From a virus, in the IMG/VR virus record IMGVR_UViG_3300033233_000081, positions 1-40,754 of that record: a stretch of 40,754 nt of DNA; one strand, given 5' to 3'. The first letter of the stretch is position 1; every line of letters starts with the position of its first letter. The notes under the pieces were generated by a model. That model was not told the origin of the DNA. It was given only the letters and a program-made list of their open reading frames with translations, and ran no database searches. Below are positions 8,688 to 40,754 of the stretch, in pieces. A program made the translations under genes and the position numbers.

Positions 8688-8719
8688 TTGACTTTCTGTA
8701 AATGATATGCATTTATGAG
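8688..8719 (+). promoter_or_regulatory. Weak candidate promoter before the capsid genes
   Basis: TTGACT (8688-8693) is a good -35. The best downstream -10 is TATGAG (8714-8719), 20 bases away, which is longer than usual; at 17-18 bases the hexamers are poor. It lies just after a stop codon and just before the structured element at 8722-8850, so a separate capsid transcript is plausible but not demonstrated. Confidence 0.3.
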
Positions 8720-8721
8720 TA

Positions 8722-8850
8722 TGGGGGAGAGGACTAACTATATGGTTGAAATAAAAGGAGATAATAGATGGCTAGACGGACTAGGCGTAAAGCACGACGC
8801 AAAGCTCGCAAGTAGCGAGCGGTCCTTCTAGTGGTTAGTTCTCTCCCCCA
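8722..8850 (+). ncRNA. Nested-hairpin structured element, three-way-junction-like, around a micro-ORF
   Basis: Outer stem: 8722-8739 pairs with 8833-8850 over 18 positions, with two G-U pairs and no mismatch. Middle stem: 8772-8781 pairs with 8822-8831 with one mismatch, extendable by G-U pairs at both ends. Inside it a 6-bp hairpin (8804-8809 with 8815-8820, GCTCGC/GCGAGC) and a weaker 4-bp hairpin (8785-8788 with 8797-8800) could make a three-way junction. The ribosome-binding site and start of a 15-codon ORF sit in the internal loop 8740-8771. The next gene's AGGAGG begins about eight bases after the outer stem. It could be a regulatory leader, a processing signal or an RNA with its own function. 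Pairing was worked out by eye. Confidence 0.65.
8768..8815 (+). CDS. 15-residue Arg/Lys-rich micro-protein
   Basis: ATG 8768 follows AAAAGGAG (8753-8760) at a 7-base spacing, one of the best ribosome-binding sites in the window. The product is MARRTRRKARRKARK: 10 of 15 residues are Arg or Lys and there is no acidic residue. That composition suggests RNA, DNA or capsid-interior binding (protamine-like), or that its translation itself matters as a leader peptide. Its last codons form the arm of a small hairpin, and the whole ORF is enclosed by the 18-bp outer stem. It lies directly before the scaffold/capsid genes. Confidence 0.6.
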   Translation: MARRTRRKARRKARK

Positions 8851-8867
8851 GAGAACAGGAGGATAAT

Positions 8868-9203
8868 ATGAATGGAGAAATGGCACCACAGATGGGAGCA
8901 ACTGGGAGCCCGATCGGGATGGAAGAGTATGCAGACATAGTAGTAGCTATGTGCATAAAAGGGTTAGAAGAAGCTCTCGGTATTTACTCTTCCACTTCTG
9001 AGAAAGGGCAGGTCTGCCTAGATTGTCTTAAGAAATTAAGCAAGGTTGTGCCAGATGCAGACCAGAAATTAGCTAAGGCAGCACAAGCTACGCAAGCTGC
9101 TCAGGCTGGTATGCCTCCTGGGGCGGGTGGAATGCCACCTGGAGGAGCTACGCCAACACCGACTCCACCGCCTACCGCTGGTGGTGGAGCACCAATTATG
9201 TAG
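8868..9203 (+). CDS. Small head-assembly region protein with Pro/Gly-rich tail
   Basis: A 111-residue protein with ACAGGAGGATAAT before ATG 8868. Residues 18-75 are helical (MEEYADIVVAMCIKGLEEAL...). The C-terminal part is low-complexity: AATQAAQAGMPPGAGGMPPGG followed by TPTPTPPP and a glycine run, likely disordered. It lies upstream of another small gene, the scaffold and the capsid, an arrangement common in podoviruses of many groups. A virion or assembly role is probable, but the exact job is unknown. Confidence 0.65.
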   Translation: MNGEMAPQMGATGSPIGMEEYADIVVAMCIKGLEEALGIYSSTSEKGQVCLDCLKKLSKVVPDADQKLAKAAQATQAAQAGMPPGAGGMPPGGATPTPTPPPTAGGGAPIM

Positions 9204-9891: not shown

Positions 9892-10956
9892 ATGGCAACG
9901 ACAGTAAACATTCCGTTTTTGACTGGTGGAGCTTTTCAAGACTCTGCACAGCTTAAACGCTTTCTGGATACAACCAGGAGAAATTTTATTGCTTATGCGG
10001 TAGCGCAGAATCTTCCCAAGATATCGCCAATGGTAAGACTTATTCTCGAGAGAGCGGATCAAAAACCGTTCCAAGCTGCTTTTATTGTGCAGCCAGTCTA
10101 TCCTGATCTCAGCTCTCCTAGCCCACAGTATCTCGATACCAGTGGTAACTTTACGATTAACGATTTCAATGCAGAGACAATAAATGCTATCTTTGAGCCT
10201 GCTGTAATGGGTAATACAATCAGACTGAATGAGTTCGAGATCGCTCAAGCAGATTCCCCGAATAAGGTTGTAAATGAACTGGCGATTAAGGTAAGCGACA
10301 TCGGGCTTCAGACATTTGCGAAGCTTACGAACGATCTTATTAGATCCAGAACAAACGACAAAGAGTTTTACGGCATCCTCGATGTGGTCGGGATCTCTGG
10401 TGTGTTTGGCGAGTTAGATAGAACAACTTATACTTGGTGGATTGGAACTCAGTATTCCTACGCTACCGACCTTGGTAATGCTTCCAATGTCTATCAGGGT
10501 ATCGAGAGAGGCGTAAACAAATACATGAAAAATGTTGGGAACATGTTTGGTTTGCCTTCCTGTGGATTTACCGACTATGCCACATTCCAGAAGATTATCG
10601 AGTCCTTTACTCCGCTTGAGAGATACAATGTTGGGCATGTAGCAGAGATTACCGAAGTAAGAGAACATACCGTCAAGGGTGTTATTGTTGGTGGTGTTCC
10701 GGTCTTTCCGGATCCTTACCTTAGCCCATATGATGCTGGTGGTGGCAATTATGTTGGCGATATCATTTATCTCAACCTAAATAATATTCACTTCTCCTTT
10801 GCAAGCCCGTTTAGTTTCTATACGACCGAGTGGCAGCCTGAATACATCAATGCTAAGCTCTCTTGGTTGTCTGTATTTCTGATTGGTGGTCAAATGTGGT
10901 CTGAACGTCCGAAGGCACATTTGGTGGTTAAGGGTGTTCCTAGTATGAACCTATAG
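9892..10956 (+). CDS. Major capsid protein
   Basis: A 354-residue protein directly after the scaffold gene. It is uncharged overall, with a helix-rich N-terminal arm (QLKRFLDTTRRNFIAYAVAQNLPKISPMVRLI), a long helix around residues 130-160 (VVNELAIKVSDIGLQTFAKLTNDLI) and alternating beta/loop segments, in line with HK97-fold coat proteins of podoviruses that assemble around a scaffold. The C-terminal region (NNIHFSFASPFSFYTTEWQPEYINAK) looks like the A-domain core. No protease-cleavable delta domain is apparent. Position and composition give good but not motif-level support. Confidence 0.8.
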   Translation: MATTVNIPFLTGGAFQDSAQLKRFLDTTRRNFIAYAVAQNLPKISPMVRLILERADQKPFQAAFIVQPVYPDLSSPSPQYLDTSGNFTINDFNAETINAIFEPAVMGNTIRLNEFEIAQADSPNKVVNELAIKVSDIGLQTFAKLTNDLIRSRTNDKEFYGILDVVGISGVFGELDRTTYTWWIGTQYSYATDLGNASNVYQGIERGVNKYMKNVGNMFGLPSCGFTDYATFQKIIESFTPLERYNVGHVAEITEVREHTVKGVIVGGVPVFPDPYLSPYDAGGGNYVGDIIYLNLNNIHFSFASPFSFYTTEWQPEYINAKLSWLSVFLIGGQMWSERPKAHLVVKGVPSMNL

Positions 10957-39635: not shown

Positions 39636-40754
39636 TTACCAGATATCACGTTCGATCATATAGTTAATCAATACTCGGTTTTCGTCTATCCCTTGATCCA
39701 TGATGTAATCCATAAATCCGTTCCACCCACGTTTTTGTATGGAGCGAATCCCATATCTTTTGCAATATTTGACTAGATTGTTTACGAATCTGAGTGTAGC
39801 TTCAAGAACTAGATGATCCAAAGTTCCTTTGAATACTCTAAATTCAATGGTGTTTTTGTTCTGGAAGTTTATTGAATAGTAACGTGATTCCCCGTTCATC
39901 ATTAAAGCTTGATCGTAATCATACGTATCATAGCGATCGCTCCATCGTGATATTTGGTATTGTGATTTTCTCGAAAACTTCACGATGTTTTCCCAAAAAT
40001 GTTCAAAGAAAAACAGGATTCTTGATTCCACTTCAACGATTCTTCTATAGGTCTTACCAAGATTCAATCGGTTTATGTGGATGTGCAATCCACAAGTCGA
40101 AGTTTTGTCACTTCTATAACCGTTTTCCCTTAGAAATTGGAATGCTTTCCTCCATGGTATTTCTTCCAAGTGAACTTGCAATTTGGCCGGGTGAGATACA
40201 ATTTCAAAACCATCGTGCAAGCTGCCATCGTGTTTAATGTAAATGTATTTCTCATTTTCTCCATCATTCATTATATCAAGCAATTGGCTTGCTTTATAGC
40301 CATCTTCACCACCACCATCAACTTCCAATTCAATCCCAAACAACAAATCCCTTTGGTAATGGCCATAATACTTTGGTTGCGGTTTGTATCCATAATTATG
40401 GATACAATCATCGTAGTTTATGTTTTGTTCCTCAAAACCGCTGTAGCACTCTGGACAAACGTATTCATAACCATCAAATAATGTGTCGTCACGATGTACA
40501 AAAGTGTTGCAAACTGGACAGCGGATATAATCTTTTGTGCACTCGTAACACAACACATTGCCTTGTGAATCTTCAATTCTATGGTAAGAAAACACAACTG
40601 TTCTTCCACAATTCAAGCAACTTGGGAAATTTGTTGCGCATCTATAGCAAATTGGTAAGTTTTCAAAGGAAATTAAATTGGCGTCAGCACTTCTGCACAG
40701 TCGGCAAATTTCAACGTTTCCGTTTCGATCGACTATGGTTGTTGTGTTGTTGTT
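39636..40754 (-). CDS. Phage amidoligase with N-terminal zinc ribbons (continues at 1-142)
   Basis: Main part of a 377-residue protein whose first codons lie at 128-142 beyond the contig join. Residues 1-110 hold six CxxC pairs (C22/25, C41/44, C51/54, C74/77, C84/87, C105/108), enough for three zinc ribbons. The catalytic part matches the COOH-NH2 ligase (Amidoligase_2) family: LLFGIELEVDG (143-152), IKHDGSLHDGFEIVSHP (178-194), CGLHIHINR (226-234) and NTIEFRVFKGTL (306-317). These enzymes, related to glutamine synthetase, are thought to form amide or isopeptide bonds on peptides or cell-wall components. The gene is AT-rich compared with its neighbours, isolated, and has its own terminator, so it looks like an acquired moron. 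Confidence 0.85.
   Translation of the reverse strand, partial: NNNTTTIVDRNGNVEICRLCRSADANLISFENLPICYRCATNFPSCLNCGRTVVFSYHRIEDSQGNVLCYECTKDYIRCPVCNTFVHRDDTLFDGYEYVCPECYSGFEEQNINYDDCIHNYGYKPQPKYYGHYQRDLLFGIELEVDGGGEDGYKASQLLDIMNDGENEKYIYIKHDGSLHDGFEIVSHPAKLQVHLEEIPWRKAFQFLRENGYRSDKTSTCGLHIHINRLNLGKTYRRIVEVESRILFFFEHFWENIVKFSRKSQYQISRWSDRYDTYDYDQALMMNGESRYYSINFQNKNTIEFRVFKGTLDHLVLEATLRFVNNLVKYCKRYGIRSIQKRGWNGFMDYIMDQGIDENRVLINYMIERDIW
40628..40754. repeat. Terminal direct repeat, copy 2
   Basis: Exact copy of 1-127. Counting one copy gives a 40,627-bp circle. It lies inside the 5' part of the amidoligase gene. Confidence 0.95.

Follow-up and report, generated by a model that had tools for sequence, protein, structure and literature searches.

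Why would a phage enclose a gene of only 15 codons in a long stem directly ahead of its capsid genes? This question is raised by positions 8722 to 8850 of IMG/VR record IMGVR_UViG_3300033233_000081, which we analyzed over its positions 1-40,754 (40.75 kb, referred to here as the window). The first-pass annotation had described an outer stem with an Arg/Lys-rich micro-ORF inside it and had placed both before the capsid block, a position that was confirmed by the arrangement of the locus, as follows.

8688..8716, + strand: candidate promoter, TTGACT (8688-8693), 17 nt, ATTTAT (8711-8716), read from the sequence; boxes at the same place in relatives
8722..8739, + strand: outer stem, 5' arm, from pairing and covariation
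8755..8760, + strand: Shine-Dalgarno sequence (SD) of the micro-ORF, AAGGAG, within the loop that the stem closes, read from the sequence
8768..8815, + strand: micro-ORF MARRTRRKARRKARK, 15 aa plus stop; mainly synonymous changes, family in relatives
8833..8850, + strand: outer stem, 3' arm, from pairing and covariation
8857..8862, + strand: SD AGGAGG of the next gene, 6 nt past the stem, read from the sequence
8868..9203, + strand: gene of unknown function after the stem, 111 aa, the first full-size gene of the capsid cluster, from gene calls
9892..10956, + strand: major head protein gene (PHROG 9953, E = 9.1e-06), similar to the annotated major capsid proteins (MCPs) of MW202753 and MW202825

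The portal-like, tail-fibre, major-head, and large-terminase genes lie on the + strand of the window, and the helicase, primase-like, clamp-like, and RecT genes lie on the - strand. The phage encodes a TerL-type terminase, which shares 49% identity with that of Hydrogenobaculum phage 1, a contig assigned to the host Hydrogenobaculum via CRISPR spacers (PMC7689252). We refer to the group of the window as the HP1-like clade, whose hosts are presumably Aquificae of hot springs. A DNA similarity search with the window gave no match among named phages, and a search for tRNA or tmRNA genes found none. In the gene order of the clade, a tail-fibre/lysis block splits the portal gene from the head cluster, suggesting that the micro-ORF is the first gene of a transcript of its own. 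Such a separate head-cluster transcript may, as a guess from gene order, be the reason why the stem arose in the HP1-like clade. At the end of the early arm, positions 39636-40616 (- strand) gave weak PHROG matches to amidoligase enzymes and strong ones to families of unknown function.

Within the window, all 18 positions of 8722-8739 and 8833-8850 pair with each other, and the pairs that are not Watson-Crick are all G-U. A scan for inverted repeats with arms of at least 14 nt and a spacing of at most 250 nt returned this stem as the sole one above 86% complementarity in the 40.75-kb window. Folding the element, as the first-pass annotation had suggested, gave a minimum free energy (MFE) of -57.8 kcal/mol, far below that of shuffled sequences (-33.2 ± 3.6 kcal/mol; z = -6.9, 0 of 200). 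The outer stem with only G-U exceptions thus holds by pairing, by fold energy, and by the covariation in relatives described below. The same annotation had also proposed a 10-position middle stem and a three-way-junction-like fold. A middle stem of 6 + 5 bp with one mismatch is present in the MFE fold of the window, but the consensus fold of the four closest relatives retained neither this stem nor the junction, and no common interior stem was apparent in more distant members of the clade. Upstream of the stem, the candidate promoter predicts a transcript start at ∼8721-8724, which is the base of the stem. The -10 box of the window (ATTTAT) is weak; the relatives L199 and L200 carry an exact TATAAT and a TATACT, respectively.

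We collected relatives by a capsid-protein scan of viral contigs, which yielded three very close loci (L002 to L004), and by an alignment out to a relative of 46% identity, which added L199 to L204. One further contig, L211, came from an independent search with the protein of the next gene; it encodes MARRKRKKTRKAGRKAGRRKKRTTA within an 18-bp stem, at whose base AGAGAGGC replaces the GGGG run. The same layout of promoter, stem, basic micro-ORF, and SD of the next gene was found in all 11 examined clade loci, which correspond to about 8 distinct sequences from few independent lineages, one of them found via the neighboring gene alone. The candidate promoters are σ70-like (TTGACA or TTGAAA plus a -10-like box), the stem begins roughly 5 to 12 nt later and spans 13 to 20 bp, and the enclosed ORF has a strong SD and encodes 15 to 25 aa. 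The peptides of the clade are MARRTRRKARRKARK, MARRTRRRARRKARK, MARRKKRATRKKSRK, MARRKKRTVRKKARK, MARRKRRKKRTSRKKKR, MARRKRRTKKRTSRKKKR, MARRKRRAKKRGSRKKKR, and MARRTRRKKRTTKRTKRAKRS. L003 and L004 both derive from the 61-kb record IMGVR_UViG_3300033233_000042, which contains two head-gene blocks separated by ∼41 kb. The capsid proteins of these blocks share 95% and 98% identity with that of the window, and two related genomes of ∼41 kb were probably joined in the assembly of this record.

In 10 of 10 loci, the stem scored better than all 300 shuffles of its own flanks, and no equally high stem score occurred elsewhere in these ten loci. Among the eight distinct stems, 95% of cells are paired and two-sided changes are seen at 12 of 16 pairs. 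The resulting covariation score was 0.786, compared with 0.262 ± 0.046 after shuffling (0 of 500 shuffles reached 0.786) and at most 0.18 after sliding; the arms had been anchored by complementarity, a bias toward structure that cannot account for the covariation, since the arm sequences differ so much. Judged by this pattern, the outer stem is under selection as a stem.

The enclosed ORF gave a corresponding result at the protein level. Its start codon is preceded, seven bases upstream, by AAGGAG, and its product in the window is almost purely arginine and lysine. In three separate locus pairs, substitutions were more synonymous than expected from random placement (P = 0.022, 0.0072, and 0.0042), with arginine and lysine swapping only with each other and A, T, S, V, and G varying freely. 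By these substitution patterns the micro-ORF is under selection as a protein, and it is intact and never frameshifted in the clade, supporting the earlier view of it as a real gene. The covarying stem and unbroken ORF that the first-pass annotation had proposed to look for in related phages were therefore both found within the clade. No family match for the peptides or the element was obtained in PHROGs, Pfam, or Rfam, where the peptide scans covered versions of 20 to 36 aa, peptides of 13 to 15 aa being too short to scan; a degenerate DNA pattern for the peptide retrieved one close contig only. Taken across the loci of the HP1-like clade, the comparison shows a conserved stem around an SD-led polycationic micro-gene.

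The geometry of this unit bears on how it could work. In the ten loci measured, the stop codon of the ORF lies 19 to 37 nt short of the 3' arm, and the 3' base of the stem is followed by the next SD after 4 to 8 nt and by the next start codon after 16 to 20 nt. The stem is predicted to be paired with a probability of at least 0.94 at 37 to 75°C in 10 of 10 loci, and the SDs are predicted to be mostly unpaired at 75°C. A terminating ribosome should consequently leave the stem closed, and a ribosome could load on the next gene alongside it. The earlier suggestion of a translational switch for the capsid genes was thus not supported, given that translation of the ORF should not melt the stem; in the modeled folds, geometry and pairing at 75°C favor a permanent 5' clamp over a switch driven by ribosomes.

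We therefore favor, with a probability of about 0.5, a closed mini-gene that heads the capsid transcript, encoding an abundant polycationic peptide of the head module with its stem serving to clamp the 5' end of the mRNA. Transcription is predicted to begin where the stem begins, and the 5' end of the message would then lie in a duplex expected to protect it from 5'-end-dependent decay and to remain closed at high temperature. Both ribosome sites would remain single stranded, allowing the micro-ORF to be translated repeatedly without opening of the stem. The peptide would then be a late, abundant, nucleic-acid-binding component of the head module, most likely helping to neutralize or order DNA during packaging, similar in kind but not in descent to the J/VP8 proteins. 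We infer both the peptide function and the RNA stabilization by analogy with two known cases: bacterial mRNAs are stabilized by 5' stem-loops (PMC7509114), and Microviridae package their DNA with short Arg/Lys-rich peptides (PMC11281519).

A profile reaching capsid proteins of 24% identity extended the survey to 80 loci of another clade, which includes the Manatee Spring phages MW202753 and MW202825. All 62 of these sister-clade loci with sufficient upstream sequence carry one or more basic micro-ORFs with an ATG start and an SD, located 1.0 to 2.1 kb ahead of the capsid gene; 49 of the 62 carry two, typically MYKKMKRGRKTRR and M(A)RKARKGRKSRK. The 68 kb preceding the capsid genes contain 111 such ORFs, compared with 1 in 1,056 kb elsewhere, and the micro-ORF family is thus far more widespread than the enclosing stem, which was found around none of the 49 tandem pairs. 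These peptides without an enclosing stem indicate that the functions of peptide and stem need not be linked. Given the same gene neighborhood and the common MAR start, the peptides of both clades are likely homologous, a question that 13 to 15 residues are too few to settle. Between the tandem ORFs, directly 5' of the second SD, we found a covarying H-type pseudoknot (AGGG..GGCUNNCU..CCCU..AGNNNGCC) at L113:4473-4539 and at the corresponding position of some 43 further loci; it had no Rfam match and may be a translational control element of its own. In MW202753 (L007:4740-5038), the GenBank record misses the micro-ORFs and instead has two minus-strand hypothetical proteins over them and the pseudoknot. 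L113 and L109 carry a GGGGGAG..CTCCCCC hairpin past the second micro-ORF and immediately 5' of a TTGACA promoter-like box, a placement suggesting that the head-gene promoter of the sister clade follows the micro-ORFs rather than preceding them. Farther out, G002 (30% MCP identity) has a shorter and less basic ORF, MAREPERTERGKRR, after a portal-size gene and without a stem, whose homology is uncertain. The far relatives (L193 to L198; P22/Mx8-like, TM7, CRP-7, and others), Mx8 and BUCT555 among them, showed no similar basic micro-ORF ahead of the capsid gene. In the 19-kb record of Hydrogenobaculum phage HP1 (L009), the window capsid protein had no match and the region is not comparable.

Among other explanations, the basic peptide could, as the first-pass annotation had also considered, bind the stem or the neighboring start region and tune head-gene translation as a feedback switch. 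Such autoregulation would fit an arginine-rich peptide whose gene lies within its potential RNA target, the mere 4 to 8 nt between the 3' arm and the next SD, and the covarying pseudoknot that also adjoins the sister-clade micro-ORFs. Yet the stem sequence has changed nearly completely between relatives whose peptides are similar, so that recognition would need to be of plain duplex; moreover, the conserved internal loop or bulge that arginine-rich-motif peptides usually need is absent, and the peptides remain where the stem is not found, which together make autoregulation unlikely. Similarly doubtful is a more general version, in which the polycations (one or two, 9 to 25 aa) are protamine-like head peptides of a very common tailed-phage lineage that recognize their own cis RNA structure, either the 5' stem or the inter-ORF pseudoknot, and thereby set the dose of peptide versus capsid protein; if true, peptide and RNA would form a self-contained control unit for which tailed phages offer no described precedent. 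Cleavage by an RNase III-type enzyme, which would release the peptide message as a small, stable RNA separate from that of the capsid genes, we also regard as improbable. Operons of phages such as T7 use such sites, and a duplex of 16 to 20 bp ahead of the capsid genes would suit the idea, but for double cleavage this duplex is on the short side, the enzyme would need to cut both arms of a stem whose loop holds the ORF, and conserved cleavage determinants were not seen.

The remaining alternatives fit the anatomy of the locus less well, and we rejected both an attenuator and a packaging RNA on these grounds. A leader-peptide attenuator, in which a ribosome stalled at Arg/Lys codons shifts RNA pairing and with it capsid-gene expression, is very unlikely even though a short ORF does precede the operon and L201 and L202 have a T-run after the 3' arm: the other loci lack the T-run, a ribosome at the stop codon, 19 to 37 nt away, does not cover the 3' arm, no conserved alternative helix and hence no pair of mutually exclusive structures was found, and the peptide sequence has been kept between very distant relatives and in other contexts. 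Still less probable is an inverted repeat acting at the DNA level, as a replication, regulator, or packaging site. The arms are also inverted repeats in the DNA, just downstream of a promoter; however, G-U pairs occur in the stems of the window, L199, L200, L201, and L202, the arms lack the sequence conservation expected of a protein-binding site, and a gene occupies the center. The least probable reading of all, at a very small chance, is a structural or packaging RNA like the pRNA of phi29 with an incidental ORF, a role that the earlier annotation had itself offered as a guess. The unit of 126 to 195 nt has paired ends and its own promoter and lies beside head genes, but its interior is conserved as protein and not as RNA, unit length and loop vary widely, no terminator is present, the next SD follows the stem after 4 to 8 nt, and the phage has a TerL-type terminase and no Rfam match to the element.

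The mini-gene with a 5' clamp that we favor shares its individual parts with known kinds of elements, namely, 5' stabilizing stems and J-like peptides; what is surprising is that they are combined and that the peptide family is so broad. In the account of PMC7509114, which cites Emory 1992 for the ompA class of 5' stem-loops, the likeness lies in a strong stem at or near the (here predicted) 5' end of a strongly expressed mRNA and a single-stranded ribosome site, and as far as that account describes the class, the present element differs in that its stem holds a whole gene in a loop of 90 to 160 nt, with a second ribosome site directly after it. As expected of a 5' stabilizer, the stem is predicted from pairing to be stable and to leave the SD out of the duplex in 10 of 10 loci, and promoter-like boxes precede the stem in all clade loci, with the start near the stem base being a prediction. 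The J/VP8 proteins of Microviridae are likewise very short, Arg/Lys-rich, and encoded with capsid genes, whereas the peptides described here belong to a double-stranded DNA (dsDNA) tailed phage, measure 9 to 25 rather than roughly 25 to 40 aa, and lack the hydrophobic/aromatic C-terminal capsid anchor of J/VP8 (PMC11281519). The phi29 pRNA resembles the element in its paired 5' and 3' ends, similar length, and phage head context; the element differs in its conserved ORF, its unconserved interior RNA, and the TerL-type terminase of its phage, and it showed neither conserved interior junctions or loops nor a match to an Rfam covariance model. Phage lambda N binds the boxB hairpin of phage RNA through an arginine-rich motif of similar length. 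An arginine-rich peptide beside a phage RNA hairpin is common to both systems, but the peptides of the clade (15 to 25 aa) have no activation region, and no conserved small hairpin or nut-like sequence accompanies them. Rfam searches at gathering and permissive thresholds returned nothing or chance matches only, and neither the peptides nor an element of such a form were found described in the open-licence literature, in agreement with the earlier statement that no described element of this form was known.

If the peptides are present in virions, tailed dsDNA phages would own protamine-like micro-proteins that have been overlooked, as they fall below the usual length of gene callers and yield trypsin fragments too small for routine proteomics. 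The breadth of the family would allow virion checks by exact mass in many uncultured phages. With its enclosing stem, a very small gene would have a simple means of keeping its message stable and strongly translated, and the stem is predicted to remain paired at hot-spring temperatures. Separately, L015, a relative of 47% identity, contains a very lysine-rich short ORF, MNLKMKTKKKMKRKTKRKLKKPKMKMKKQKNN, at 2323-2421, upstream of its terminase gene.
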